Program-made: the position numbers and the translations under genes
Part shown: positions 28,974 through 48,428 of the stretch, in pieces
How positions within the stretch are numbered: position 1 is the stretch's first letter
How the letters are laid out: each line of letters opens with the position of its first letter
Origin: Candidatus Zixiibacteriota bacterium
GTDB lineage: Bacteria; Zixibacteria; MSB-5A5; GN15; FEB-12
NCBI GenBank assembly: GCA_029860345.1
Contig: JAOUBJ010000005.1
Span: forward strand, 248,001-312,000
Direction: 5' to 3'
DNA: 64,000 nucleotides
The notes under the pieces: model-generated
Database searches by the model: none
The model's input: only the letters and a program-made list of their open reading frames with translations
What the model was told of the DNA's origin: nothing

Positions 28974-29003
28974 AAAAAGGCCGCCCAAGTTGGCGGCCTT
29001 TTT
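28974..29003. terminator. bidirectional terminator between convergent genes
   Basis: Perfect 12-bp stem AAAAAGGCCGCC (28974-28985) and GGCGGCCTTTTT (28992-29003), six-base loop. T-runs occur on both strands. It separates the plus-strand dockerin gene from the minus-strand cluster that ends at 29046, so it can stop both. Confidence 0.92.
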
Positions 29004-29045: not shown

Positions 29046-30227
29046 CTACCAGGTCAGACGCCAACTGGTCGAGTCCGGCACAGTCAGTCGCTGCCTGAGA
29101 ATTGTTCCATCGCGTAGACTGATCGTAAACTCATATTTTGTCCCGGACGGTATCAGTGAGTCCGCCGGCACCAGATCCAGATAAAAATACCCGGTGCTGT
29201 CGCTGGTCGTGCTCACAGGCGATGGCGAGATTACGGTCATGCCGAATCGAGCCACCCCCGAAGGCAGCCAGGCGCTGACAGCCGCATCCTCTTCAGCCAC
29301 ACCATCGGCCGTGAAAAGATGCCCATAAACCCGACACAAAGTCGGGAAGGCCGGAGCGCCGGGATCAAATTGGTCACAGAAGATAGTGTCCACACCCGCG
29401 CCCGACACTACGACAGTGTCATATCCGCCAAAAACGTAACCCGAAGCTGAAGCCACGACCAGAAAACTGTCGGCATCCAGATTAAAAGCGACCTGCCCCA
29501 GATTGTCGGACCGGCCAACCGCAACCAACGATGACTGGTCAACACTTCGCACACCCAGCGATGCGTAAGGTATGGCCAACCCCACGCCGGAATCGTATGT
29601 TTGTATCGTGAACGAATAAGCTCCCGAGCCGGACGATACTCCCGACACCTCGGTGTCGAGGTACTTGCCGAAACTGCCCGAGGTGGTGTGACCACTCTGC
29701 TGAGTGTTCCACACCCAGCCGGCCGTGGTGGCCGAGTCGCCGCCCAATTCGGTACGATTGGAATCCACCGCCCCGCCCTTGACATTGACCGAGTCGTCAA
29801 TCAAAGCCAATTGGTCGGAGAGTTCGTCGCCGATAATCTGAAATGAATAGACGTTCGGCGTCAACAGACCACCCGTGTTTTTTTTGGCAAGAATGGTCAT
29901 ACAGTAGGACCCTGCGTCGCCGCTGCCGTCGAGGTTGGACACCTGATCTTTGAATGAATAAAACTGTTTTGCTCGAATAGTAACCGAGCTCACCCGGCTA
30001 TCGGAAATTGCAGCCGAATCCTTGTAGGCTACATCACCCGAAGGACCACTCACCAAAACGTAGAACGAGTCAGCCGTTGTGGCATTGCCCAGACTGTCCA
30101 CCGAGTAAAACAAAAACGACAAAGAATCTTCGGCCGTCGGTGTCGATGTCGAGTTGTTGACAATACCACCGAACAGCGACGCCGCTGATAAAAGACCGAC
30201 TCCCAACAGTAATAGTTTACGCATCAT
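29046..30227 (-). CDS. exported beta-rich protein at the end of the capsid cluster
   Basis: 393 residues from ATG 30227 (ATG 30224 is equally possible; AGGAAGGGAG lies upstream). Signal peptide MMRKLLLLGVGLLSAASLFGG. The body is rich in Ser, Thr, Asp and Val. It has strands typical of beta-sandwich domains: DSFYVLVSGPSGDVAYKD, then a carboxypeptidase-regulatory-like end (CRVYGHLFTADGVAEEDAAV, STTSDSTGYFYLDLVPAD). The C-terminal part therefore resembles the repeats of the giant protein at 15957. It is the last minus-strand gene before the terminator at 28974. A phage neck or fibre role is possible, but the signal peptide argues for a surface protein of the host. Confidence 0.65.
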   Translation of the reverse strand: MMRKLLLLGVGLLSAASLFGGIVNNSTSTPTAEDSLSFLFYSVDSLGNATTADSFYVLVSGPSGDVAYKDSAAISDSRVSSVTIRAKQFYSFKDQVSNLDGSGDAGSYCMTILAKKNTGGLLTPNVYSFQIIGDELSDQLALIDDSVNVKGGAVDSNRTELGGDSATTAGWVWNTQQSGHTTSGSFGKYLDTEVSGVSSGSGAYSFTIQTYDSGVGLAIPYASLGVRSVDQSSLVAVGRSDNLGQVAFNLDADSFLVVASASGYVFGGYDTVVVSGAGVDTIFCDQFDPGAPAFPTLCRVYGHLFTADGVAEEDAAVSAWLPSGVARFGMTVISPSPVSTTSDSTGYFYLDLVPADSLIPSGTKYEFTISLRDGTILRQRLTVPDSTSWRLTW

Positions 30228-30362
30228 ACTCCCTTCCTGGCAAAAATGTGTCTGTGGGCGGCAGTTGGACGCCACTTGTGGCTGTCCCCGTCTTCCCCAA
30301 TACAAACGTGGCGCACGAGGACGTACACCAGGCACAAATCACACTCCGCATCATACTCCCTT
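30220..30362. repeat. 16-bp direct repeat carrying a ribosome-binding site and ATGATG
   Basis: The 16 bases at 30220-30235 recur at 30347-30362. On the minus strand both read AAGGGAGTATGATGCG. The first is the translation start region of the exported protein at 29046-30227. The second opens a minus-strand frame of about 46 codons beginning MMRSVICAWC that runs into the first. This looks like duplication of a gene start. Confidence 0.6.
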
Positions 30363-30376
30363 GCCCGCTTTAGTTT

Positions 30377-31141
30377 CTAATCTCTCAAGAGCGACCGAAC
30401 CACCTTCGAACGTCGCACCTGCGTTGTATCGGCCGTATATAAGAGCAGTAACGGATAATACCCGGCGCCACTTTCCGATGATTTGATCACTTTGCGGCTA
30501 AGGTTCACCGGTGGGTCGTTGCTGTTTACCAACATGAAGCCGTAGTTACTGCCCGAGGTATCCCAATAGGTCAGCATACGGTTGAAGTTCTTCATAGTGA
30601 AGTACTGTCCGGTGCCGGTGACGTTGACGCTGCACGCCACCGCCGTATTGTAGTCACCACCGGCCGAGGTCCAACTGACCGAGTCGCCGTCGCCGACATC
30701 CAGATAGGCATGCAGCCAGGTGGCGCCTGAGTCCGGGTCCGGATAGTCACCCAGATTGTGTTTGTTCTCGCTGCCCTCGAAAGTCTCCTTGGTCAAAGGG
30801 TAAGCGATCAATTGTCGGGCCAGAATACCGCTCTGGATGTAGCAGTATACTTTCAACTCCGAAGAATCCGGAATTGTATCGTTCCATCCCGGAAGCTTGA
30901 AGACTACCCGTAGCTCGTCGCAACATCCGCCGTTTCCAACACCCATATTGATCACACGGCCGCCGTTGAAGCGTGTGCAATCTTCACCTGTTTCTTCCGG
31001 GTCGCAATTGGCATACGAGTATATCAGGCAGTCCTCAATGTCGGAGGTATCCTTCAGCGTGTCTACCCTTGCCGACACCGATGCGGTAACCATGAACCCA
31101 ATCATGACAGCCACACCCACTTTGTGGAGCGCGCTTCTCAC
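30377..31141 (-). CDS. exported protein, DNRLRE-like beta domain
   Basis: 254 residues with a GTG start at 31141, preceded by AGGAAGAG and overlapping the upstream stop by four bases (GTGA), so it is translationally coupled to the capsid-cluster genes. Signal peptide about 1-25 (VGVAVMIGFMVTASVSA). The body DTSDIEDCLIYSYANCDPEETG, LRVVFKLPGW, TWLHAYLDVGDGDSVSWTSAGGDY and the Gly/Tyr-rich end YYPLLLLYT resemble DNRLRE-type beta-sandwich domains of secreted surface proteins. Cys are several, consistent with oxidation outside the cytoplasm. A secreted protein translationally coupled to phage head genes is unusual. Confidence 0.7.
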   Translation of the reverse strand: MRSALHKVGVAVMIGFMVTASVSARVDTLKDTSDIEDCLIYSYANCDPEETGEDCTRFNGGRVINMGVGNGGCCDELRVVFKLPGWNDTIPDSSELKVYCYIQSGILARQLIAYPLTKETFEGSENKHNLGDYPDPDSGATWLHAYLDVGDGDSVSWTSAGGDYNTAVACSVNVTGTGQYFTMKNFNRMLTYWDTSGSNYGFMLVNSNDPPVNLSRKVIKSSESGAGYYPLLLLYTADTTQVRRSKVVRSLLRD

Positions 31142-31422
31142 TTGCTCTTCCTGGAGGTCGTTGTTTTCGTTCGTGTCGTTTTCTTAGCCGGCTTCTTTTC
31201 GGGGATGCCCTGGCGAATCTCATCCACAAGTTTCCAAAACCGTTTCTGATCAGCGCCGCCCGGTGTCAGTTTATGCCTTAGTTCAACCATTTTGATCAGG
31301 TCTCCCAATTTGGCGTTTTCTTCAGCATGCTTAATGATTTCACGGTAGTACCTTTCGATGAGTTCATCAAACAGCTTCAACCAGGGAGAACCGTCGGGTG
31401 GTTTCCCTGCGTTTCGTTTCAC
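31138..31422 (-). CDS. small helical protein with Lys/Arg/Thr-rich tail
   Basis: About 94 residues from GTG 31422 (a TTG at 31440 would give 100). It is helical (WLKLFDELIERYYREIIKHAEENAKLGDLIKMVELRHKL) followed by a very basic tail (KKPAKKTTRTKTTTSRKSK) suited to binding DNA. It starts directly after the stop of the gene at 31424 and its end overlaps the next gene by four bases. The size and charge could suit a small terminase or a head-completion protein; neither can be shown. Confidence 0.6.
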   Translation of the reverse strand: MKRNAGKPPDGSPWLKLFDELIERYYREIIKHAEENAKLGDLIKMVELRHKLTPGGADQKRFWKLVDEIRQGIPEKKPAKKTTRTKTTTSRKSK

Positions 31423-31423
31423 G

Positions 31424-31798
31424 TTAATCGCCCATCTCAATTATCAACAGATCAACCAGCACCGGACCGGATGCATCCGGGTCGCGTGCTATCTTGAAGC
31501 CCTCAGTCGACTCCTCACCCACAACGAAGGCCGTCTCAACACTGCGCGGTCGAACAATTACCCGTGGCGATGACAACGATTGAGGTAGCTGGTTACCGCG
31601 ATGGTCGGTGAGATTGGCAAACGTTACTTGTTGAGCGACATCTCCAATATCGATAGTCCCATACAGAACCGATGTGGTACTCTGCACTTGTTCCTGGACA
31701 ACAAACTCGATCTCGCTCCACCCGGCCAACCCCCAGGCTGAAAACTCGGGAACAAACCATACCCGATGCGACTTGGCTCTTTCCAATCCTGATATCAT
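31424..31798 (-). CDS. small beta-rich protein of the capsid cluster
   Basis: 124 residues from ATG 31798, with GGGAG about six bases upstream; a longer reading to 31873 would overlap the previous gene. The sequence (ISGLERAKSHRVWFVPEF, VLYGTIDIGDVAQQVTFANL, PRVIVRPRSVETAFVVGEE, VLVDLLIIEMGD) alternates strands and turns, like small neck or tail-completion proteins. No family recognised. It lies ten bases after the connector-like gene. Confidence 0.6.
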   Translation of the reverse strand: MISGLERAKSHRVWFVPEFSAWGLAGWSEIEFVVQEQVQSTTSVLYGTIDIGDVAQQVTFANLTDHRGNQLPQSLSSPRVIVRPRSVETAFVVGEESTEGFKIARDPDASGPVLVDLLIIEMGD

Positions 31799-31808
31799 AT
31801 CATCTCCC

Positions 31809-32621
31809 TTAGCTGTGTACCGGCGCCGACGGACCCTGGGCCGGTGGGCGGAATCGGTTAAGGAGTTGCTCACTACCGGCTGCGTATTGATCGGATAGTT
31901 TCATCCAGGCCAGTGCAGTACGATCCTCGCCGCGACGACTGGACAACTCCCGTGCGGCAGCGGTGCGACAAACAATCGCCAGCGCGCGCTGAGTGGCCGC
32001 CGCCTGCAAAGTACGGTCAGCACCGAACTGTCCGTCCGGGTCCACCTCCTGCTCGACCAGACTGTTGGCCTCAGCCACCGCGTTGTTCAGCACATCATCA
32101 TTGAAACTGTCATAAATCGGTGAGTAGTCCAGAAAGACCGTTTCGCCGTCGATGATTTCGCCGGATACCACTCTTTTGATCTCGCCGGAGTCGACTCTTA
32201 CTTGATAGTCTGCGCCATCGGTGTACGTCGCAAACGTCTGATACCATACCGTCACCGCCTGGCCGACACTTAGCGACCCGCCCGACTTGACCGCGATGGT
32301 TCCCACACTGTAGTCGATGGCATAGTCTGTGTTCTCCACATACAACGTACCCATCGAACTATCGCTTGCCACCACCACCGAGCCCGGCGCAATCGGCGAG
32401 GCCGCCACGCTTACCGGACTGCTGCCCAGGGTAATACTCGAGCGCGACAAGCTGTTGCTCTTGAGCGTCTTCACCTTGAGCACCGAACCGTCGATAGCGC
32501 CGTTGAAAAACGGCAGGTAGTCATCCCCCTTGAAATACAGAGCTTGGTTGACCACCTGTTCGGCCGTTGGAAAGGCACTGACCAGGTGGTGACGAATCAG
32601 TTCCACATTAGTATATGACAT
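31809..32621 (-). CDS. putative head-tail connector-like protein
   Basis: 270 residues with a GAGGAGG ribosome-binding site. The N-terminus (TNVELIRHHLVSAFPTAEQV) and C-terminus (NNAVAEANSLVEQEVDP...LQAAATQRALAIVCRTAAARELS...AWMKLSDQYAAGSEQLLNRF) together look like the helical gp6/DUF1320-type head-tail connector fold. A beta-rich insertion of about 100 residues (SVLKVKTLKSNSLSRSSITLG, YVENTDYAIDYSVGTIAV) lies between. It is two bases downstream of the beta-propeller gene, so clearly in the same operon. The assignment rests on pattern and position. Confidence 0.55.
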   Translation of the reverse strand: MSYTNVELIRHHLVSAFPTAEQVVNQALYFKGDDYLPFFNGAIDGSVLKVKTLKSNSLSRSSITLGSSPVSVAASPIAPGSVVVASDSSMGTLYVENTDYAIDYSVGTIAVKSGGSLSVGQAVTVWYQTFATYTDGADYQVRVDSGEIKRVVSGEIIDGETVFLDYSPIYDSFNDDVLNNAVAEANSLVEQEVDPDGQFGADRTLQAAATQRALAIVCRTAAARELSSRRGEDRTALAWMKLSDQYAAGSEQLLNRFRPPAQGPSAPVHS

Positions 32622-32623
32622 CC

Positions 32624-34039
32624 CTACCTCCTCACGATAACCGCACCGGCGTTGGAAATCGATGTTATCTGACTGCCCACCGGACCGGTGCTGAAGCCGG
32701 TCGTTACCTGTATTTGCACCCAGTAACGTTCATCATCGCCCAGCGCTTCTTTCTGCCAGTCGTCGGGCGTAGCGTCGTAGTCGTTCCACAAGAGCAACTC
32801 CTTGTCCGAAGCATCGAAATCGTAGGCGCCGCCCGCCGGCGTGAACGCAATCCAGGCCGAGCCATCCCAATAGGAGTACTTAAGGACTCCACCCACACCA
32901 ACCGTTGACAGGAGTATGCGAAGATAACGGAATCGACGATCCATCCCGATATGCACAGTATCCCCGAGAATTTTCAACAATGTGGAGCTACTGGAATGAT
33001 AGACGTCCGCTGGCGTGCCACTGGCCGCAGCGGCCGTAAGATCATTGTAGCTGGATGACCCGATGTCATAAACCAGGACTTCGTCAAAAGCTCCCGCACC
33101 CGAGTCCAGAGGTTCAGGTGTCACAAAGCTACCCGTCTCACGGCTGGTGTACATCAATTGCTCCTGCCCTGTTGCGTACTGCGACAGGTACACCACCACC
33201 GGTACGTTCACGTTAAACAACACCTGCGGGCTATTGCCCTCGGCCGCATCCAGGTCCACCACCGGACTCCAAACGGCCCCATCGTACTCACGATACTTCA
33301 AGGCCGCCTGATCATAGGCCACAGCCAGTAGTCCGTTGTCCGAGACGGCCACGTCGAAGTGATCATCGATATTGCTGGCGCTTGAAGCCAGATCAACGGC
33401 CGTCGTCCAACTGCCGCCCACGATCGGACGAGAACGCACCGACAACGTTGAGCCGTCGTAACTGTAGACGATGAATATGTCACTGGTACCTATGACGACC
33501 TTGCTGTAAAGCTCCGACGCGGCATTGCTGAGTTCATCACCATCGTCGGCCGGACCGCTGCCCCAGGTCGCTCCCGAATCGGTCGAGGATTTTGCGTGAA
33601 GGTAGTATGACCCGGTATTGAGATGCGACCAACTCACCCACAAAGTCCCCGCGGCTTCAATCGTCACCGACGGATTGTACGCCTCGGCGCCGTTGAATAC
33701 GGTCACCTTCGAACCGATCGACCAACTACCGCCCGAGAAAGAGAGCTTCTTCGTCACCAGATACTTGGTCGTGACCTCGCTGTAGACAACATGAATGTTG
33801 CCGTTGGTGTCCATCAAACAGTCACACGGTTCGTCGGCTGCATCGGACGCGATGGTCGCAGGGGTCGACCACGTCCCGTAGGGCCGGTCTGCCCAACTGT
33901 ACTCGATATCGCCGGACGCCGTTTGCACGACAGCCACCAGCCGCCCGCGGTATTGTCCCGATGCCACCTTTAACAGTTTCCTGGAAGGGGGCAGGCCGAC
34001 CGGATAGGTAGCACTTGATTCAGTTATCTTCTTTTGCAT
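32624..34039 (-). CDS. sialidase-like beta-propeller protein in the capsid cluster
   Basis: 471 residues without a signal peptide. It contains at least five repeated blades with BNR/sialidase-like character: DIEYSWADRPYGTWSTPATI, YLHAKSSTDSGATWGSGP, SVRSRPIVGGSWTTAVDL, YREYDGAVWSPVVDL, LMYTSRETGSFVTPEPL. The C-terminal about 130 residues (FRYLRILLSTVGVGGVLKYSYWDGSAWIAF...DERYWVQIQVT) are a separate beta domain like those of phage baseplate or fibre proteins. A sialidase active site cannot be confirmed. It could be a receptor-binding or decoration protein of the particle. It starts 51 bases after the capsid gene. Confidence 0.65.
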   Translation of the reverse strand: MQKKITESSATYPVGLPPSRKLLKVASGQYRGRLVAVVQTASGDIEYSWADRPYGTWSTPATIASDAADEPCDCLMDTNGNIHVVYSEVTTKYLVTKKLSFSGGSWSIGSKVTVFNGAEAYNPSVTIEAAGTLWVSWSHLNTGSYYLHAKSSTDSGATWGSGPADDGDELSNAASELYSKVVIGTSDIFIVYSYDGSTLSVRSRPIVGGSWTTAVDLASSASNIDDHFDVAVSDNGLLAVAYDQAALKYREYDGAVWSPVVDLDAAEGNSPQVLFNVNVPVVVYLSQYATGQEQLMYTSRETGSFVTPEPLDSGAGAFDEVLVYDIGSSSYNDLTAAAASGTPADVYHSSSSTLLKILGDTVHIGMDRRFRYLRILLSTVGVGGVLKYSYWDGSAWIAFTPAGGAYDFDASDKELLLWNDYDATPDDWQKEALGDDERYWVQIQVTTGFSTGPVGSQITSISNAGAVIVRR

Positions 34040-34090
34040 CGTTCTCTCATTCAGCGGGGGGACCGCCCCGGGCGATCCCCCGGCAGGGTA

Positions 34091-35194
34091 TTAGGTCCAA
34101 ACGCTGTCCATCACCACCGACGCTTCTTTGATGACCTTGGCATAGGTCACCGACTCGGAAATCACGGCTTCCTCGAAACGCTGTTCGATGACTTTGTCGT
34201 ATTCGATAGTCAACGGCTGAGTGATCACTTCCTCGACCGCAAAGCGGCTGTCGAGACCGAGAACATAGTCGGTTGGAACGTCATCACAACGAACCAAACG
34301 AGCGCCCAAAGGACTGAACAGATCGCCGGTGTTCTGAAAACGATAACCGGCCATCGGGTCCTTGAACTCAGCCAGGGTCAGGATCGTCTTCATCTGATCG
34401 ATATGGCAGACAATCGTGTTCATTTCAAACGGCGAGAACTGCGCCCACAGACTGATCAAGTCGTCGTAATCCAGGGTGGCGCTGACAGCCGTATTGACCA
34501 CCGTAGCGCCGTTTGAGTTACCGTCACCGTTGATAATGGTGTCAACGACCAAGGCGATTTTGTCGCTCTGAATTCTGAAACCGATGTACCACAACAATAC
34601 GCGGAACTGCGAACTGCTGCGATAACGAAGCGCCTTGTAGCTGGTCTTGAGAGCCAAACCGTAGTCGGCTACCTTGACCGCATGGTTCTGTTCCGTTACC
34701 AAAAGCTGCGGCACATCGGCGCCGTCACCGATAGGACGAAGCGAAAACTTGGTGTCGTCCGAGGTATCGATGAAAAACGGCGTGTAACTGTTGGATGCCA
34801 CGCTGGTCGAGTTGGCAATCAAACGACCCAATTCCGGCCGCATGGCTTGACCCTTCTTCACCTCGCGCAACATGAACTCCGGCAACAAAGCCGGCGCCTG
34901 CTGATAGAACTGCTCCACCGTGGTCGGCGACTTGCCGCCGAGCCGGACACCGGCCAGGGCCAGCTGCCGTTCAAAAGCATCAAGCGGACAACCGGTCGGC
35001 GTCGGATCATACTCCTCGCACTCCAGCAGTTCTGAGAGCGTAAGCCCGCGGCTCTCCGCTTCCGTGTAAAGATCGCGTCCTACTTCAACCGCCGTCGCCC
35101 TGGTCAGATCCACCGGAATCTCCGTTGTCGCTTGTTCGATCTCTCGGTTCAAATTGACAAAGGCGGCCGAATTCAAAAACTGATTGAAATTCAT
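34091..35194 (-). CDS. major capsid protein-like, HK97-type fold
   Basis: 367 residues. The N-terminus is helical (FVNLNREIEQATTEIPVDLTRA). The body has the sequence style of HK97-fold coat proteins: FFIDTSDDTKFSLRPIGDGADVP, VKVADYGLALKTSYKALRY, DKIALVVDTIINGDGNSNG (the long spine-helix region), LDYDDLISLWAQFSPFEMNTIVCH, DLFSPLGARLVRCDDVPTDYVLGLD, and a C-terminal strand set (LTIEYDKVIEQRFEEAVISESVTYA). Position between a decoration-like gene and neck genes supports it. The ribosome-binding site is AAGGA. A catalytic role is not expected. Confidence 0.75.
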   Translation of the reverse strand: MNFNQFLNSAAFVNLNREIEQATTEIPVDLTRATAVEVGRDLYTEAESRGLTLSELLECEEYDPTPTGCPLDAFERQLALAGVRLGGKSPTTVEQFYQQAPALLPEFMLREVKKGQAMRPELGRLIANSTSVASNSYTPFFIDTSDDTKFSLRPIGDGADVPQLLVTEQNHAVKVADYGLALKTSYKALRYRSSSQFRVLLWYIGFRIQSDKIALVVDTIINGDGNSNGATVVNTAVSATLDYDDLISLWAQFSPFEMNTIVCHIDQMKTILTLAEFKDPMAGYRFQNTGDLFSPLGARLVRCDDVPTDYVLGLDSRFAVEEVITQPLTIEYDKVIEQRFEEAVISESVTYAKVIKEASVVMDSVWT

Positions 35195-35207
35195 CTTCGG
35201 TCCTTTC

Positions 35208-35627
35208 TTAGTTAAGCAGAATGACGCAGTCGGTTGTACCGTTCACTTCAAGTACCGTCCCGCGTGCCACGTTGCCACCGGCCGGATCGGAGGCCACCGT
35301 CGGAGCCTGCTTGACCGTTCCGCTGGCGCCACAGACCACCCGATTACCCACTACGGGATAGGTAGTGGTAATAGCCAGGCGGCAGACCCCGCCGACCTGC
35401 ACCGAAGCCAGCCGGTCGCCGTCGTCACCGTCGTTTAACGTCAAACTGATTAGCCTGCCCAACAGTTGGTCGCCGTCACCACACGGTCCCACTTCGCCGT
35501 CGTCTGTCAGTATCACCGGCTCGCCTATGTTGGTATCTTTCAGATCATCGACACTGGCCGTCTGCTTGATCGTAAAGGTGGCCAGCACCGGCGCTACCGC
35601 ATCCAGGTTCTGATCTCTTACTGCCAT
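35208..35627 (-). CDS. capsid decoration-like protein
   Basis: 139 residues rich in Val, Thr, Gly and Asp: TASVDDLKDTNIGEPVILTDDGEVGPCGDGDQLLGRL and VQVGGVCRLAITTTYPVVGNRVVC resemble DUF2190/gp-type head-decoration or stabiliser proteins, usually encoded just upstream of the capsid gene, as here (14-base gap). AAAGGAAAC precedes the ATG. It probably coats or stabilises the shell. Confidence 0.6.
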   Translation of the reverse strand: MAVRDQNLDAVAPVLATFTIKQTASVDDLKDTNIGEPVILTDDGEVGPCGDGDQLLGRLISLTLNDGDDGDRLASVQVGGVCRLAITTTYPVVGNRVVCGASGTVKQAPTVASDPAGGNVARGTVLEVNGTTDCVILLN

Positions 35628-35730
35628 CTCGTTTCCTTTTGTTCATTGAAAGTTGAAATACTTCGGCCGGGAGCGAATCCCACAAGGCCGGGACTTATGA
35701 GCTTGTTGACAAACGTCTCATGCAGAGGTG

Positions 35731-35754
35731 GTGTAGGGCGACCCCGCCCGACAC
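35731..35754. repeat. intergenic hairpin GTGTAGGGCG / CGCCCGACAC
   Basis: An imperfect ten-base stem (9 of 10 matched) with loop ACCC, followed by CTAC. A related sequence beginning GGTGTAGGGC and ending GACACCTAC is at about 37399-37427, and GTAGGGCGGGTCC...CGCCCGC lies near 39717. It appears to be another short dispersed intergenic element. Confidence 0.5.
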
Positions 35755-35865
35755 CTACCTCAAAATCCACAGACAGTCAGGCCAGTCACCCAACTGCACC
35801 GGCGCCTGGAGGCGCTTCGGTTCGCAGAAGAGAAGTCAATCAACACTTCCATAAATCCCTCCGGT

Positions 35866-36276
35866 TCATTTGTAAAGCTCGGGGTCCATCGACCGCCGTC
35901 GAGTTGAATACCAACCGGTGCCGCTGAAACTGGCCGGAAAGGCATCACGAAAACGGGCCGACGTTCGACGATATTGACGGACCAGCTCCTGGGCAGTCAT
36001 TTGAGGCAGCGCCTCGAGATAGTCGGCGATACTCTCAAGACCCGAGTCGGATCGTGTAACCGCCGCCACCGCTTTCATCATACCGCTGATACGACCCACT
36101 ATGTCTTCGCGCAACGTTGCACATTCATCCTGCAACCGCCCAATGTCCGACAGCACAGGCGCCACATCGCAAAGCCACTGTCTCAACTCGTCGAAATCGA
36201 TCAGCGCCATGCCGTCATCGGTTAGACTGGTCGTCACTCGATCGATGTATTCCTGGTGAGGATTGTTCGTCTCCAA
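35866..36276 (-). CDS. small helical protein, TTG start
   Basis: 136 residues. The start is TTG at 36276 with AGGAG six bases upstream; it overlaps the end of the previous gene by 61 bases. The sequence is largely helical (ALIDFDELRQWLCDVAPVL, RLQDECATLREDIVGRISGMMKAV, IADYLEALPQMTAQELVRQY) with a polar C-terminus. In size and position it could be a scaffolding or head-morphogenesis protein. No family recognised. Confidence 0.55.
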   Translation of the reverse strand: METNNPHQEYIDRVTTSLTDDGMALIDFDELRQWLCDVAPVLSDIGRLQDECATLREDIVGRISGMMKAVAAVTRSDSGLESIADYLEALPQMTAQELVRQYRRTSARFRDAFPASFSGTGWYSTRRRSMDPELYK

Positions 36277-36571
36277 TGTTCTCTCCTGGTTTATTGATGA
36301 GGTGATACTCGATTCGGGCGAGCCTTGCCTCGATCTCTTTCGAAAAACGATAGAACGTCTCTTTATCTACCACCCCTTGCTTCAGAATCACCTCAAAACC
36401 GGCCAGTTTCTTGTCCAGCGTTTCTACAACCGCCGCTTCAGCCTTGGCGGCCAGCTCGATCTTCAACGATTGGATAGTGAGAAAATAGCCGGCTGCGATC
36501 CCAAATACGACCGTCACGAATCGAAGTAACGGACCGTTCAAACGAATGCCACCACTGTGCTCGTCAGCCAC
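36215..36571 (-). CDS. small membrane protein with coiled coil
   Basis: 118 residues from GTG 36571, chosen because AAGGAG lies six bases upstream and this clears the divergent gene at 36625. One membrane helix (LLRFVTVVFGIAAGYFLTI) is followed by a long heptad-like helix (LKIELAAKAEAAVVETLDKKLAGFEVILK...FSKEIEARLARIEYHLI) and a polar tail. Single-helix anchors of this kind occur as holin-like or spanin-like proteins, but no such role can be demonstrated. Confidence 0.55.
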   Translation of the reverse strand: MADEHSGGIRLNGPLLRFVTVVFGIAAGYFLTIQSLKIELAAKAEAAVVETLDKKLAGFEVILKQGVVDKETFYRFSKEIEARLARIEYHLINKPGENIGDEQSSPGIHRSSDDQSNR

Positions 36572-36624
36572 CTTTTGCTCCTTTTTTTGTTGACCGCCAT
36601 CCCGGCCCGCTGGATCTTGGTCGC

Positions 36625-37347
36625 ATGTCTGATGAACGTCCATATATTGCCGTCCTGTTTATTCGGCTGCTTCTGGTTGGTCTGTTCGCCGCCGGCTTTC
36701 TGATCGGTTGCGGTGAAGAAGGCGGTCCCTCAGGTTCATCGGGAGGGGCTCTCGATGGCCTTGACCTGCTTGGTCTGGAAGACGGACGTTCACTGGTCTA
36801 TATCCGTATAGACTCCATTCGAGACAGCTCCTTCAATCTCTATGTCAGCACCAGCTACGACACCTTTACCATCACCGGCGACCTGGAGGACTGGGCCATC
36901 GGCAACAACCACCAGCCGATCATCAGCCTGAAAGTCAGTGATCAATCGGTCATTCAGAATGGATATTGGCCGCTCACCGTCGGTACACCCCAGATCACAT
37001 ACCTGCCGGTGCCACCGGTAATGATGCCGCGCCAACTTTCGGCCACGGATTCGTGGGGTGGGTACGTACCGCTTTTGCAGGTCGGACTCGAAGACGTGCA
37101 GCATCTTTTCTATTACTCATACTTCGGTTTTCACCATTCCAAGTCGTATGTCGCGCATCCCCAGGTTACCGTCCCGGCCGGATCGTTCGGTGCTTATCAA
37201 TTCGATGTCCGCTTGTACCAGCGCTACGACGACACCGACCCCGTCGCCATCGTGCGGGAGTACTATGTCCCCAACATAGGACTCGTCCGACTTGACATCT
37301 CAGGCGGCTCCTTCAAGCGCGTCCTCAGTCTCATCAGTTACCAGTAA
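36625..37347 (+). CDS. lipoprotein inserted on the opposite strand of the capsid cluster
   Basis: 240 residues. Signal peptide with lipobox LIGC (Cys29) and a Gly/Ser-rich linker after it. The body is a beta-rich domain: SLVYIRIDSIRDSSFNLYV, DTFTITGDLEDWAIGNNHQP, YVAHPQVTVPAGSFGAYQF, VREYYVPNIGLVRLDISGG. The last motif, YYVPNIGLVRLD, is common in bacterial lipoproteins that end WYAPGVGLVK-like. It is host-like rather than phage-like and is transcribed against all of its neighbours. No obvious ribosome-binding site precedes the ATG. Confidence 0.75.
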   Translation: MSDERPYIAVLFIRLLLVGLFAAGFLIGCGEEGGPSGSSGGALDGLDLLGLEDGRSLVYIRIDSIRDSSFNLYVSTSYDTFTITGDLEDWAIGNNHQPIISLKVSDQSVIQNGYWPLTVGTPQITYLPVPPVMMPRQLSATDSWGGYVPLLQVGLEDVQHLFYYSYFGFHHSKSYVAHPQVTVPAGSFGAYQFDVRLYQRYDDTDPVAIVREYYVPNIGLVRLDISGGSFKRVLSLISYQ

Positions 37348-37497
37348 CTACCCGCCGAAACCTGTGGGCGGCAAATGTCCTCATCTGCCCCAATAAATGG
37401 TGTAGGGCCACCTCGCAAGACACCTACGGCGGTACCCCCAAGCAGTCGGGCGAGTCGCCAGACCGCACCTGCCAGCCAACAGTACAGGCAGCGTTTA

Positions 37498-39021
37498 TCA
37501 ACTGACACTCCGACGGTAGAACAAAAAGCGCGTCCGCCCCTCCAACTTGATCCTGCGCAGAGCAAACCAGCCTTCCAACGCTCCCGACAGCCTCAGCAGG
37601 TAGCCCCCATCCTGCCGCGACAGCTCCACCAACCGACCACTCGCCATGGTGGAGAGTTCTTCAAAAGTTACATCCTCCACCGGAACTTCGTCGGCCACAA
37701 ACCGTGCCCCTCTGGCCAGGCGCGCTTGATTCCCTTGTCGAACCACAAACCTCCCCCGCTCACCCTCGTGAGCAAATATGAAGGTCAAATCGTCGCTGCC
37801 GGTTGACATCCCGTCCAGCCAGGCCGGGCGACACACTCGATAACTACCCAGCGACTGCTTACCGCCATGGGGACAATATCGATATCCCAAAGATTGCGGC
37901 GGAAGTTCGTCGAGGCTCCACACCCGGACACCATCCCGTGTCATTACAGAACGCGCGGCTTCGTCTACCTGCGTGGAAGCGACAACCTCGTGTCGTAACA
38001 CTCGGATACGATCCGGCCTGCCGTTCCTGGACAGATTCGACGGGTCCAACCCATTCTGCGGAACCAGTTTCAGCTCCAGTCGAGATGCATGTGATGGTTG
38101 TCCGCTCAGTAGTTTGCTTAAAGCCGACAGTTTCAACCGCTCCTTACCGCGATACGGCACCAACAACCCACACAACTCTTCATACTCCGCGAGTTGATCA
38201 AGATCAAACCGATTGCAGAATTCCTCCCCAAGCAACTCCCCGTCGAGGCGGCACAGTCTCATCTGGCCGTCGACCATGCTGACTCTCACCATCAGTCCAT
38301 CGTAGTACGGCGTCACCAGACATTGAGATGCATCACTCAGCTCAGACAGGTCCTTCAACTCGGCAGGCACCTCTGCCGACAGGGACTGGCCGGCGACGTC
38401 AGCCGCCTCGGCCTTCAACTCTTTGGACACCGAGGTATCGTTGACCGCACCCCGGTAGACCAGCGAGGTCTCCAGCACCCGTTCAATCTTGCGATAATTA
38501 AAATGGCAGGATACCTGTTCGCCGTCGACTTCATACTCAGCCAGCGGCTCATGTTCACAGGTGCGGATGTCCTTCTTGCAGACCGAGCACTCCGGCATCA
38601 GAAAAGTAAAGCCGATCGAACACTCCTTGTAAATCCCGCCGTCGATATTTTCACGCAGATTGTCGGCGCCTTGGGCGCTCTTCAGCCAATAGAAATAGCT
38701 CTTAACCCACTGACGATTTTCACGCTCCACCGTCCCGGCATGGAAATTCCGCGCGATCGGCAGTTTGTCCTTGCGATGCCCGACCATCACCGGCGAGTCG
38801 ATCAGAAGTTCAACCAGCCGCTTATGCTCCTCGACAGGAAACCGCCCACCGAAGCTGTTGACTTCATCAGACACGATATACATTGCCCGCACAAAGACGT
38901 CATCAGCCACTATCGGCGTCGGAGGGTTCACGTTTTTGTTTATCAATTCAACCAGATCGGCACTCACCTGTTCAGCCGGCTCGGCCAGCTTGGCGGTGAC
39001 ACGGCCAAGACTTGCGCTCAT
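37498..39021 (-). CDS. prohead protease-like protein with a ligase-like C-terminal half
   Basis: 507 residues from ATG 39021 (GGAGG upstream). Residues 1-200 resemble prohead proteases of the XkdF/S78 type: VMVGHRKDKLPIARNFHAGT, SYFYWLKSAQGADNLRENID, GGIYKECSIGFTF, ETSLVYRGAVNDTSV. They contain a Cys pair (CSVCKKDIRTC) that may bind zinc. From about 230 on, YYDGLMVRVSMVDGQMRLC and LCGLLVPYRGKERLKLSAL recall the nucleotidyltransferase domain of ATP-dependent DNA ligases, but the KxDG lysine is replaced (YYDG). The end GYLLRLSGALEGWFALRR recalls the LigD phosphoesterase motif. The second half is inference only. Position between terminase and capsid genes fits a protease. Confidence 0.6.
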   Translation of the reverse strand: MSASLGRVTAKLAEPAEQVSADLVELINKNVNPPTPIVADDVFVRAMYIVSDEVNSFGGRFPVEEHKRLVELLIDSPVMVGHRKDKLPIARNFHAGTVERENRQWVKSYFYWLKSAQGADNLRENIDGGIYKECSIGFTFLMPECSVCKKDIRTCEHEPLAEYEVDGEQVSCHFNYRKIERVLETSLVYRGAVNDTSVSKELKAEAADVAGQSLSAEVPAELKDLSELSDASQCLVTPYYDGLMVRVSMVDGQMRLCRLDGELLGEEFCNRFDLDQLAEYEELCGLLVPYRGKERLKLSALSKLLSGQPSHASRLELKLVPQNGLDPSNLSRNGRPDRIRVLRHEVVASTQVDEAARSVMTRDGVRVWSLDELPPQSLGYRYCPHGGKQSLGSYRVCRPAWLDGMSTGSDDLTFIFAHEGERGRFVVRQGNQARLARGARFVADEVPVEDVTFEELSTMASGRLVELSRQDGGYLLRLSGALEGWFALRRIKLEGRTRFLFYRRSVS

Positions 39022-39265
39022 TTTACCTCCATTTGCTTTACCAACCGACCCATGCAATCCAATTGCAACAAATCACCGACCCTAATGCGCAATTTGTTGC
39101 TAAGAACACACCAGATTATGGCCGGTCAAACAGCACGCCGAACCACCTAATCGACTGTCTCACAGACTGGTACATAAAGCCCCCCCACTTTGTCTTAAGT
39201 GGGCATTACCTTTGCTTTTAGACTGAGTGGTTGGAAACGTAGACAGAAAACTTGAGGTAATTGTT

Positions 39266-39607
39266 ATGACCGTTTACAAGAACAAGAAGAGCCACAGTAT
39301 GAAATGGCTGATCGCCTTGGTGATCTTTGTGCTCGGTATGACCATCACCTGGTCCTCAGTGGAAGGCGCCGAGGTCTCGTCCACCATGAGTATTCACAAG
39401 GCCCACACCGCCCACGCCTCCTTTGGACGCAGCCGCTTTCATCCCAACTGGTTCCCCGGCTTTTTGAAACCCCCGAGGACTATCCTGGCCTCTGCCACAC
39501 TTCGTTTGGACGTTTCAGATAACAGAGTTCTTGATGTCAAAAAGGCGAAGTTGGATCAGTTAGATACTTCGCCTACTCTGCGGACGGGTTACATCAGCCA
39601 AAGCTAG
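39266..39607 (+). CDS. small exported or membrane-anchored protein, unknown
   Basis: 113 residues from ATG 39266, with GAGGT seven bases upstream. A basic N-terminus (MTVYKNKKSHSMKW) leads into a hydrophobic segment (LIALVIFVLGMTITW) with a possible cleavage site after VEGA. The rest is short and polar (HKAHTAHASFGRSRFHPNWF, ILDVKKAKLDQLDTSP). It lies alone on the plus strand between the terminase and protease genes and is followed by a terminator. Function unknown. Confidence 0.55.
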   Translation: MTVYKNKKSHSMKWLIALVIFVLGMTITWSSVEGAEVSSTMSIHKAHTAHASFGRSRFHPNWFPGFLKPPRTILASATLRLDVSDNRVLDVKKAKLDQLDTSPTLRTGYISQS

Positions 39608-39640
39608 ATTCCCCTACGTTCCCAACCCTTCCGCCCTCTC

Positions 39641-39678
39641 GCGCCCTTTGAGATCCTCCCCTTGAAGGGCGCTCTTTT
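39641..39678 (+). terminator. probable terminator of the small plus-strand gene
   Basis: Stem GCGCCCTT (39641-39648) and AAGGGCGC (39665-39672), 16-base loop, followed by TCTTTT. It starts 34 bases past the stop of the gene at 39266-39607. Confidence 0.6.
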
Positions 39679-40238
39679 GTGCCTCAGTATCTTCAGTCGA
39701 ACGACCATCTGCTTTTGTAGGGCGGGTCCGTCTTCGCCCGCGCGCCGCGGCGTGAACCCGCCTTTGTTCTGGTGCCGTCATTCCACCCCGAGTGTTTTGT
39801 ACCGTTGTGCGACCCCGCGCGACGGCTCTTGTAGGTCAGACCGCAGCCGCGGATTGCGCTCCTGACAAATCCAACTTGAGCGCTGTCGAAGGATGGGATG
39901 GCTTGTGCCCACGTGATCTTCAGATCGCGTGAACTGCACCGAGAAGAGGGCGCCTTGCGTCGCCCCGTTGAGCGCCGATTGTGACTAATCTAGCCCTATA
40001 GTAAGCCCGGGTGGCCGAGGGCTTGCCCTGGGATTAGATGAATCCTTGGGCTATATAGAAAACTTTCCATGTTCCACAGCTGCCTATCATGCCATGAGCA
40101 ATCGTAGCTCTTACACGAAACCAACAACTACAACAAGAAACCCACCGTAAACGGATGGGCTACCCGATCACAATGGCTCATGCTTCGACTCCGCTCGGCA
40201 TGACAGTAGCAACGCGCGAAGCGCGAAAGAGTGATTTA
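39679..40238. other. 560-bp non-coding stretch with repeat-like fragments
   Basis: No supported gene. It contains a GTAGGGCGGGTCC...CGCCCGC hairpin-like sequence near 39717-39745, a decayed GTAGGTCAG...CTCCTGAC element (39831-39866), and CTTCGACTCCGCTCGGCATGAC near 40183, a phrase common in intergenic repeats of uncultivated bacteria. It interrupts the capsid operon between protease and terminase, so the operon has been opened by repeat insertion or gene loss. Confidence 0.5.
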
Positions 40239-41549
40239 TCACACCTTCCCAACTCTTGCCTGGATGGTCGGTTCACACCGGCGCCTGAGCGGCCACAAAG
40301 CCAGCGCCAGGGCCATAAGCGAATCGCACTCGTTGTTGTCATCCCAACGGGCCGAACGTAACTCATCCTCAAACGACCAGACCTTCCCCGGCCCGTCGGG
40401 CAGTGGCCATCGTTCATAGCTGATCCGCTCGGTAGCATGAAACAGCTCGACGTTGGTCAGCATCTCAGCCTTGGACGCGGCCGTGAAAATCACGGCCACC
40501 GGATTGAACTCTCTCAGTTGCTCAACAACTACGTCCCCCAGCCCGGTAGCGTCCACGATCAGTTCACCGGGGTATCTCACTTGCCGCTGTTTGATTTTCT
40601 CCACAACGACGTTCCAATCAAATTGCTTAAACCTCTCCAGCGCCACCACTCGGGCTACGCCGTCGACCACTTCAACCGTGACCCCCACCGTGGCTGTCTT
40701 CTTCCGGGCAAGGTCCCAACCTGAGATGAATCTCTTTGTGTCTCCGGGCGCGGTCATGACATCCGTGTCATGTTCCAAGGCACAAAAAGATGCCAGCGCC
40801 CGATCGACATAGGACCCTTTGAGAATCTCCCCACCGGAGTCCACAAACTGCCCCATGATGTTTTGTTGCACCCTATGTTCGGAGAAATGCGTCAACCGTT
40901 CTTTCAGAAAGTCCTGCGAAATGTACACATTTTCACGACTATCGCCCGACTGAAAGTACCCGTTGCGAGAACCTTTGGTCACCTCACGCGCCCGCCGGTA
41001 AAACCAGTTGCGACCGTTGGGTGTGCTGACCAGGTCGAGTTTCCCCTCGCGGTCGGCCAACCGCATCTGAATCACTTCTTCTACTACATACTCCGGGTCC
41101 GGCTCAAACGCCACCTCATCGAAGATGAACAGATCGTAGTCATGCCCCAGCAGGTACTCGCCGCGATTCTGCGTCGAACGCGCTTCGATCACGGCGCCGT
41201 TACCGAATGACATGCGTGGATAAGGCGTTCGCACCAGCGTTGTCATCAGAGCTTCCAGCCATGGCAGCCCGCGCACTATCCGCACCACCTGGTCGAAAAT
41301 GATATTGGCTTGATCCTGAGTGATCGACGCCGTCACAATGTGATACCGTCCACACCGGTCAAACTCCAGTTTTCGCAGCCGATAGATAGCTCGGTGCAGG
41401 ATCTTCACGGCCGCTGCGAAAGACTTCCCCCAACGATTCCCGGTCACCAGAACGTTCTCAGCCTTAGTAGAATTCTCCAGCCATTCTCGCTGCCCCTTGT
41501 GCAATTCAATCCCGAGCGCGGCGGAAGCGAAATAGGCCGGATCGGCCAT
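40239..41549 (-). CDS. phage terminase large subunit
   Basis: 436 residues. The ATPase domain has a Walker A-like VTGNRWGKS (35-43), Walker B LFIFDEVAFE (Asp144, Glu145) and motif III VSTPNGRNWF. The nuclease domain has the three acidic residues expected of an RNase H-like fold: Asp in SGWDLARKKT (near 284), Asp in IVDATGLGDVV (near 336) and Asp in ECDSLMALALAL (near 418). All key residues are present, so the DNA-packaging motor may be functional. It lies 35 bases after the portal gene; no small terminase gene was recognised next to it. Confidence 0.9.
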   Translation of the reverse strand: MADPAYFASAALGIELHKGQREWLENSTKAENVLVTGNRWGKSFAAAVKILHRAIYRLRKLEFDRCGRYHIVTASITQDQANIIFDQVVRIVRGLPWLEALMTTLVRTPYPRMSFGNGAVIEARSTQNRGEYLLGHDYDLFIFDEVAFEPDPEYVVEEVIQMRLADREGKLDLVSTPNGRNWFYRRAREVTKGSRNGYFQSGDSRENVYISQDFLKERLTHFSEHRVQQNIMGQFVDSGGEILKGSYVDRALASFCALEHDTDVMTAPGDTKRFISGWDLARKKTATVGVTVEVVDGVARVVALERFKQFDWNVVVEKIKQRQVRYPGELIVDATGLGDVVVEQLREFNPVAVIFTAASKAEMLTNVELFHATERISYERWPLPDGPGKVWSFEDELRSARWDDNNECDSLMALALALWPLRRRCEPTIQARVGKV

Positions 41550-41584
41550 CCCGCGCCGCCAGTCGATAACCGATGTCAGGCCGG

Positions 41585-42859
41585 CTATAGCAGGTCACCA
41601 ACTTTTGTCCGGGCACTCGCTTCGTCGATCAAACCCGCTTGGTAGGCTTTGAGCAGGGAGTCTACCTCCGTGGCGCGCACCGATGCCAGTTCCGTCGCTT
41701 GATATGAAAAATTGTTATCGAACACGAAACGACACTCGGCGTTCAGTCCGCTCAGGGCCAGATCGATATTGCCGATCCACTCAAGAAGCTGCGTTGCCTC
41801 GGCCTGCACCGAACGAACCTGTCGCATGACAACGTCAAACTTGAAAGCCGACCAGCTGGTAGTATCGCCGTAGGAATAACCCAACAGAAACGGCGCCAGA
41901 TGGGTTCCGGCGCAAACCTCCTCGATTATGGCCCGATGCTGGAAAAACCACTGGTTGTTTCCGGATCGTCCGCCCGGTTGTGGCCCGATATACTCGATGC
42001 CGACATTGTCCCAGGTCACCGGGTTGTCGTCAATCTCGCATGAACGAATCATCGACACGGTCGAATCGAAATAGCTGTTGATCCGGTCGGTGAAAGCTGA
42101 GTCGGACTCGCCCGACATCCGCTCCGGCGGCGTGATCTTGACATGCAACCGATGAAACCCGGCATTGTGGCTGGACCGCCTCATGTCGTCGATCAGTTGT
42201 TGCTCGATATAGGACACGAATGGTATAGCGTGCAGGATGGATTGGCCCAGCGGTTTTGATATGCCGGGGTTGAAGGCCAGATGACGAAAGTCAGGCCGGG
42301 ACAAATCGATCTGCTTGTCATCGGATTCCAGAATCAGGCGCGGTCGCCCCCGGCTTTCATCGACCGCAATGTCGATCGAATCCACCGGAATAAACCGATG
42401 CACGCCCGAACCGTCCGGCTGCACCGTCACAAATCCGCCAAAGACACCGTCCCTGAACAAACAGCGAAACATATCCACCAAAAAAGCAGGCGTACCCGAT
42501 GTCTGACCGGACGGGTCAACGTAGATTCTACGAGCCAGATCATCCAGCCGCTGCTGAGCAGAAGCACTGTCGGCGCCCTGACCGTTCTCGACCACCTTGA
42601 ACACGCCCGGCGCCGCGGCCAGCCGGCTCCATGTCCAAATAACCGAGTTCACCACCGGAATGTTGTCACAGAGAAACCGGTACAACATTGATCGATAGCG
42701 ACCGGTCTTCACATCACCGGACGACATTTTCAACATCGCTCTGATGCGGTCCGTTGTTTGATACGAGTCTTTTGACACCGCCCTAGTCCGGGTGGCAAGT
42801 CTCAAATCGCGCTCGGGTCGGTTTTTCGTCGATACTTTCCTGCGTCTGAGGAATTTCAT
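41585..42859 (-). CDS. phage portal protein
   Basis: 424 residues from ATG 42859, with AGGAG five bases upstream. Portal proteins form the dodecameric ring through which DNA enters the head. Visible: a basic N-terminus (MKFLRRRKVSTKNRPERDLR), IPVVNSVIWTWSRLAA, HLAFNPGISKPLGQSILHAIPF, and a C-terminal block ICAGTHLAPFLLGYSYGDT-like with FKFDVVMRQVRSVQAEATQLLEW and the DEASARTKVGDLL end, typical of portal clip/crown regions. It is first in the cluster and adjacent to the large terminase, the usual order. Confidence 0.85.
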   Translation of the reverse strand: MKFLRRRKVSTKNRPERDLRLATRTRAVSKDSYQTTDRIRAMLKMSSGDVKTGRYRSMLYRFLCDNIPVVNSVIWTWSRLAAAPGVFKVVENGQGADSASAQQRLDDLARRIYVDPSGQTSGTPAFLVDMFRCLFRDGVFGGFVTVQPDGSGVHRFIPVDSIDIAVDESRGRPRLILESDDKQIDLSRPDFRHLAFNPGISKPLGQSILHAIPFVSYIEQQLIDDMRRSSHNAGFHRLHVKITPPERMSGESDSAFTDRINSYFDSTVSMIRSCEIDDNPVTWDNVGIEYIGPQPGGRSGNNQWFFQHRAIIEEVCAGTHLAPFLLGYSYGDTTSWSAFKFDVVMRQVRSVQAEATQLLEWIGNIDLALSGLNAECRFVFDNNFSYQATELASVRATEVDSLLKAYQAGLIDEASARTKVGDLL

Positions 42860-43300
42860 ACTTTCTCCTTTTTTCAAACCATTACCGGCTGACAAAACCC
42901 ACGATCCTGTAATGTTTTTGAACGCTGCCGTACACAATCGGACGAACTTGCACGCAAAGTTTGCGCATCCAAGTCACGCCGCAACAAAACAGCGACCGAT
43001 GCGTCCTTATAAACAGAAGAACCGCCCGAAGAGAGGCTCGATTGGCCTGCCGGCTGTTCCGGGACAGATCGGGCCGCTCGGAGACATTGCGAAACTGGTA
43101 TTATAGAACGTAACGAGGTTGCCTTCGTTGTGGGTCCGGGTCGTTGAAACCTGCTGCCTTCTCACCGTTTCGATCCGCATCAACTGCTTCGCGCTCTGAA
43201 CACTGACACCTGACGTCCTCGTCTTAACGTTTCAAATTTCAGGTGCCTCAGACAAGGGTGGAGTCTGTCCACGAGCGAATGCCGCGTCGTGCACTCAAAG
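42860..43300. other. divergent region between portal and GT-C genes
   Basis: 441 bp without a supported gene. It should hold the promoter of the capsid cluster (minus) and of the glycosyltransferase gene (plus). TTGCGAAACTGGTATTATAG near 43087-43106 looks like a partial plus-strand promoter (spacer too short to be certain). Nothing else is apparent. Confidence 0.45.
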
Positions 43301-46587: not shown

Positions 46588-47109
46588 CCAAAAAAATCGT
46601 CCCGGATAGCCCCAGAACATAACTTATGGCATAACAATATGTTAACTGGCCCAGCGGATTTTAGCGGCTTACGCTATGTCCAACCTCTCAGCACCCGGCT
46701 GGTCTGGTTGCCGCAACAGATCCTACCCACAAAAAAATGACCCATGTAACCGAGAATTGGAACCAAGTGGCCACCGATTTGATCCAGATGCGCAAGATAA
46801 GCGCCCTCATGTCAACTGGATAGACGCAATCCACGTCGTTCGTTGGGGACGAACCAGTACGGCTGGCGGGTTCCGTGTGGTTCCTCACAGGACCGACATT
46901 TTCTACTGGCCGAAGAGGGTTATTCTCCTGATTGTCAGTAGCCGGTGACGGTCCTTCGTGTTCTTTTCTGCTCACATTACCAGTCCAGTCTGAGGCAGAG
47001 ACGCCTATCGTATCCCCACTCTTTATTCTAATACTCTTGTGATCGAAGCAACGGTCTAACGAAATGACTGCCTGAACGCGGGTTTCCACTGATACGATCT
47101 GTCAGTGGG

Positions 47110-47915: not shown

Positions 47916-48428
47916 TAATGTAACACCTTACCGACACCTGCAATCGCCGTTGGCAATTTGCTCTGAGGCTGTGTTTGTCATGAGTGTTCCCACCACCCCA
48001 AAAAAAATGACCCATGTAACCGAGAATTGGAACCAAGTGGCCACCGATTTGATCCAGATGCGCAAGATAAGCGCCCTCATGTCAACTGGATAGACGCAAT
48101 CCACGTCGTTCGTTGGGGACGAACCAGTACGGCTGGCGGGTTCCGTGTGGTTCCTCACAGGACCGACATTTTCTACTGGCCGAAGAGGGTTATTCTCCTG
48201 ATTGTCAGTAGCCGGTGACGGTCCTTCGTGTTCTTTTCTGCTCACATTACCAGTCCAGTCTGAGGCAGAGACGCCTATCGTATCCCCACTCTTTATTCTA
48301 ATACTCTTGTGATCGAAGCAACGGTCTAACGAAATGACTGCCTGAACGCGGGTTTCCACTGATACGATCTGTCAGTGGGGTGTGGTATTCTGACGGCTAG
48401 AATCGGTCAGGGATACCACACGGGACGC

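Follow-up and report, generated by a model that had tools for sequence, protein, structure and literature searches.

Head and packaging genes of the block

The 64,000-nucleotide stretch analysed here (the window) is part of the 4.76 Mb genome of a Candidatus Zixiibacteriota bacterium (genome G000, contig C5, positions 248001-312000) and carries a block of phage-type head and DNA-packaging genes that continues into genes for predicted exported proteins. A previous sequence-only reading had named portal, terminase, protease-like, decoration, capsid and connector genes at this site. We found all of them in the window, on the minus strand, to which the gene coordinates below refer unless the opposite strand is stated, and the portal, large terminase (TerL), protease, decoration and major capsid protein (MCP) genes have family matches. 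The portal protein (41585..42937) matches phrog_30703 (3e-10); across the class it is single-copy and always paired with TerL. The latter (40239..41549) matches phrog_2 (1e-33) and PF03237, and its catalytic residues are as intact as had been claimed, the Walker A motif GNRWGK, Walker B D144-E145 and the nuclease aspartates D279, D333 and D409 showing no or almost no variation across 47 relatives. The XkdF-type head maturation protease bears a C-terminal extension (37498..39057; phrog_16951, 3e-16, and phrog_80; profile match to an XkdF-like protein, E 1e-17), and the capsid decoration protein (35208..35627; phrog_4588, 5e-8) precedes the HK97-fold MCP (34091..35194; phrog_3922, 5e-62). From what is known of these families, the combination of capsid, protease, portal and intact terminase suggests a head filled with DNA.

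Distribution and inheritance

MCP, TerL and portal were searched in 146 genomes, 132 of which belong to the class. Among these 132, MCP is present in 111, TerL in 115 (with weak matches in two, G010 and G124) and the portal in 112, nearly always as single copies, and the matches are almost everywhere free of stops. Eight of the class genomes have none of the three genes, six of the eight being under 90% complete. MCP identity to the window declines with taxonomic distance, from about 90% (genus) through 74% (family) and 67% (order) to 60% (class), with rpoB identities in the same genomes of about 86, 77, 71 and 67%. In the MCP tree (41 rows) each multi-member GTDB family falls on a single branch, and the 15 family labels require 14 changes, the minimum possible. 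Distances correlate with those of rpoB (Mantel r of 0.88 for MCP and 0.90 for TerL), MCP evolving at about 1.3 times the rpoB rate as judged from the slope. Within the order, one and the same dockerin gene remains the neighbour of the block, in many cases together with lipA. The module is inherited vertically like a core cell gene. In this sense, the proposal that the gene order, exported proteins included, would recur in related genomes was borne out, although through vertical inheritance across the class and not at unrelated loci.

Within the genus, median dN/dS is low for MCP (0.066), decoration (0.082) and the downstream genes g8 (0.066) and ex2 (0.089), and reaches 0.2 for ex1 and 0.28 for the protease; some of these genes offer few pairs or are near saturation, and portal and TerL values were unusable. 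Purifying selection, which the sequence-only reading had put forward as a check, is thus found, with no relaxed selection. We conclude that the block is real and that it is no prophage in decay.

In at least 12 genomes of several families (G013, G074, G080, G089, G096, G101, G103, G107, G108, G121, G122 and G129) the portal-TerL pair lies far from the MCP block or on another contig, both being kept. No other conserved phage-like family adjoins the detached pair, save a small gene like g9 in some genomes. That both separated loci are retained is more in keeping with selection for a shared function than with hitch-hiking, and a multi-locus pattern has been described for gene transfer agents, GTAs (PMC12946183, PMC11841831).

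Two contigs titled as a Thermoplasmata archaeon (L027) and as Flavobacteriaceae (L039) also carry Zixibacteria-like modules, with MCP identities of 77% and 72%; these contigs are probably mislabelled or misbinned.

Tail, export and lysis genes

The sequence-only reading had described a single operon running into the exported proteins. This stands for the gene run from s1 to ex2 (about 36643-29046), which is uninterrupted and ends at a strong terminator-like GC hairpin with a T run seen in the sequence (28975..29003, minus strand), but opposite-strand genes at 39227-39607 and 36625-37347 split the upstream half, so that no uninterrupted operon spans the whole block. The second of these, a lipoprotein-like gene on the plus strand between the protease and s1, occupies the same place in several families. 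The s1 gene (36215..36643) encodes a small protein with one transmembrane (TM) helix and a coiled coil, conserved throughout the class; its true start is probably internal, and a lysis or scaffold accessory role is possible. The s2 gene (35866..36276), for a small helical protein, precedes the decoration gene.

Downstream of MCP, bnr (32624..34039) encodes a sialidase/lectin-like beta-propeller with a C-terminal domain. Its model (pLDDT 94) resembles sialidases, lectins and one phage chain, 9efk_M of the LME-1 portal-tail complex (E 4e-11), which makes it a candidate nozzle or glycan-binding part. The g7 product (31809..32621), with beta domains followed by a helical bundle, has a connector-like layout and weak neck or tail matches (HRP29 tail chain, probability 0.69), and is a candidate connector or neck protein. 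A small beta protein encoded by g8 (31424..31873; conserved start at about 31804-31795) is a candidate neck protein. No convincing match to PDB sequences came from profile searches with g7, g8 or the propeller. A very short, podovirus-like tail is possible. Among reading-frame clusters from 40 MCP and 20 TerL loci, not all of which were profiled, no tube, tape-measure, baseplate or fibre family was recognised. Of 61 genomes, 4 have a tape measure (PF10145) and 2 a sheath (PF04984), neither being found in the genome of the window, and no tail genes adjoin either the MCP or the portal-TerL locus. The small basic helical protein g9 (31138..31440) is a candidate small terminase; in some families genes like it separate portal from TerL, and profile searches gave no significant family match for it.

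The predicted exported protein ex1 (30377..31141), with a basic C-terminus, follows g9 through the four-base overlap already noted from the sequence (GTGA, 31141-31138). The second, ex2 (29046..30335; true start near 30227), contains a carboxypeptidase-regulatory-like domain and is conserved class-wide. In agreement with the claim of two proteins with signal peptides, both N-termini are signal-peptide-like, as judged by a hydropathy rule and not by SignalP. Across loci, the slot between g9 and ex2 holds such starts in 34 of 36 genes against 210 of 492 other locus proteins, and an arginine-rich C-terminal tail in 23 of 36 against 70 of 492, while TerL, protease, MCP, propeller, g7, g8 and g9 have no signal-peptide-like starts. 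The slot proteins are diverse, one being CBM96/Disaggr-repeat-like; ex2, by contrast, is kept throughout the class. Slot proteins that are otherwise unrelated (L062-L100) share short RRR C-terminal tails, possibly a sorting or docking signal.

The statement that no lysis gene is present holds within the window, but in relatives ex2 is followed by an amidase and holin-like cassette or by a small TM protein. In G082 the block ends with ex2, an Amidase_2 gene (PF01510, 1e-13) that overlaps ex2 by four bases, and a 60-aa gene without profile match, called holin-like from its size and position. Part of a G082-like amidase also follows in G091, at the contig end, and in G138, from a second clade described below, an amidase with a holin match stands beside the portal. 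Many other families close the block with c12, a TM protein of about 100 aa to which profile searches assigned no family and which was not found after ex2 in the window. Lysis genes belong to the system in some lineages.

Relatives and possible function

A second clade, in another phylum (G138, G146-G183; families f26 and f34-f40), carries MCP as a single copy in 34 of its roughly 39 genomes and keeps the same kind of module vertically. This clade and a KSB1 locus (L060) have homologous portal, XkdF protease, decoration, MCP (1e-123) and g7 (1e-75) genes, g7 being common to the second clade. They likewise hold exported genes inside the module, after the protease or MCP, and in some cases an amidase; they differ in having another TerL, no propeller and another gene order. 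A weak BLAST label that presented the second-clade TerL as a homologue was overturned by profile search.

PBSX packages host DNA. It has been described as GTA-like (PMC12946183). Clostridial PBSX/XkdF clusters, such as IMG/VR regions of 10-15 kb and the Tepidibacter plasmid prophage NZ_CP120734, have homologous portal, protease, decoration and MCP genes (E 1e-8 to 1e-90), but they bring their own sheath, tape-measure and/or baseplate genes, and no match to the Zixibacteria TerL, g7, g8, g9 or propeller was found in them. The Zixibacteria module is not a PBSX-type element in this sense, since its head genes are homologous but sheath, tape measure and baseplate are absent; a PBSX-like head lineage likely lost its tail and was then domesticated. 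The window MCP alone gave no matches among viral contigs. A search with a diverse MCP alignment (A4) gave 210 relatives, 80 of which were kept, and those inspected were clostridial-type PBSX-like clusters of 10-15 kb and one Zixibacteria-like contig (L212). Many of the IMG/VR MCP relatives (L214-L291) are regions of 10-15 kb, several from isolate genomes; the few inspected are clostridial-type PBSX-like clusters, possibly unrecognised GTAs. Five faecal matches named 'Bacteriophage sp.' looked at first like phages. One of them, MT835508 (L163; a human-faecal record), is a piece of clostridial chromosome with ribosomal and rnf genes and a TerS-TerL-portal-protease-MCP cluster, without tail genes nearby.

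The nearest published case is FpGTA of Faecalibacterium, whose particles show no visible tail in electron microscopy (PMC12946183). It is likewise a chromosomal capsid-packaging cluster, near-ubiquitous in its genus, with structural and lysis loci apart, and differs in belonging to Bacillota, in a second operon with baseplate, tail-fibre and receptor-binding genes and in that no exported slot is described (PMC12946183); the likeness is one of description, the Zixibacteria module being class-wide but known from genes alone. Our literature search found no paper that brings together Zixibacteria and either capsids or gene transfer agents. Alphaproteobacterial GTAs of the RcGTA type differ by a siphovirus-like tail inside their cluster, and to our knowledge they have no exported slot. 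In how they work they are comparable, with vertical inheritance, several loci, purifying selection and a link to lysis (PMC11841831).

We consider that the block probably encodes a domesticated GTA-like particle, tail-less or very short-tailed, that would package DNA, be released and transfer it. Genes alone do not establish membership among GTAs, which would require packaged host DNA and its transfer to be observed. An ancient phage structural cluster would have been domesticated and kept by the cell; an HK97-type icosahedral capsid, with portal, protease and terminase, would form a head filled in the cytoplasm with DNA, presumably of the host. Lysis of the producer, by amidase and holin in some lineages and by other genes elsewhere, would release the particles. 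These may deliver DNA through a very short tail, built from g7, g8 and the propeller, or without any tail, and the exported proteins may serve on the cell surface, for instance in docking by binding glycans. In support, the module combines phage-derived head and packaging genes and an intact terminase with vertical inheritance, purifying selection, genes over several loci and no self-mobility genes, neither integrase nor replication genes being found in the block. The system resembles GTAs in its vertical inheritance, its dispersed loci and its lysis cassettes (PMC11841831). Amidase and holin-like genes occur in G082 and the second clade, with none recognised in the window; as to the tail, the well-studied GTAs all have one, and here neither tape measure nor sheath is conserved. 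Several points weigh against a GTA-like particle. Particle, packaged DNA and transfer have never been observed, most families, this genome included, have no recognised endolysin, and purifying selection would be equally expected from a role other than DNA transfer. In addition, G024 and G041, otherwise good genomes, are without MCP, TerL and portal, and in the complete genome G094, which has retained portal and MCP, TerL was not found. G094 (L161) is a reduced genome in which about 10 kb separate the portal gene from that of MCP; a neighbour of its portal considered as TerL is a sugar dehydrogenase and was rejected.

How such a particle would deliver DNA divides the GTA-like reading. In one tentative form, somewhat doubtful in our view, bnr, g7 and g8 would build a short DNA-injecting tail of podovirus type, as suggested by the likeness of bnr to the LME-1 chain and, weakly, of g7 to the HRP29 tail, and by FpGTA particles, which look tail-less and may bear short tails (PMC12946183); yet the propeller is no less similar to sialidases and lectins, and the second clade and KSB1 have no propeller. 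Less likely again is a truly tail-less packaging particle whose domestication preceded the deep radiation of the phylum, and which arose in parallel in, or is shared with, at least one other phylum; in it, secreted glycan-binding proteins produced along with the capsid would replace the tail for delivery or docking. A domesticated capsid that carries DNA or other cargo for DNA storage or disposal, for matrix extracellular DNA or as a decoy, its exported proteins being surface or matrix factors, is unlikely. It would suit the lack of a recognisable tail, the families without identified endolysin, the glycan-binding-like exported proteins of the same gene run and the capsid kept in G094 with TerL undetected, but nearly all genomes have retained portal and TerL, including those where the pair is detached, a retention that speaks for packaging and exit of DNA, and lysis cassettes occur in G082 and the second clade.

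The sequence-only reading had judged a domesticated particle to fit better than a normal prophage, as we do from the recurring gene order and purifying selection: no integrase, replication, tail or lysis genes accompany the head genes of the window as in a functional prophage, and no complete prophage flanks the block in sister genomes. It had also left room for a degraded prophage, which the missing integrase, replication, repressor and tail genes, and a c12-type gene not found after ex2, might suggest; the vertical tree, single copies, low dN/dS, frames with almost no stops and catalytic residues intact class-wide contradict this, and we regard it as highly improbable. The same holds for an active tail-less virus or satellite spreading horizontally with helper tails: head genes without a tail recall capsid-only satellites, but there are no integrase or replication genes, the MCP tree carries no horizontal signal, and the neighbouring lipA and dockerin genes are conserved within the order. 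An encapsulin nanocompartment was rejected because portal and TerL are conserved throughout the class.

GTAs have been confirmed in few lineages, and those characterised are tailed. If the GTA-like reading is true, a class-wide capsid module with MCP divergence of about 1.3 times that of rpoB would rank with the most widely conserved known cases of viral domestication, and would give the phylum a DNA-exchange route that can be checked in existing viromes. The exported proteins raise the question of how a particle without a recognisable tail would contact and enter its recipient.

Elsewhere in the window, a 300-nt direct repeat (46725-47024 and 47995-48294, 99% identical) holds one minus-strand reading frame twice (46688-47089 and 47928-48359).

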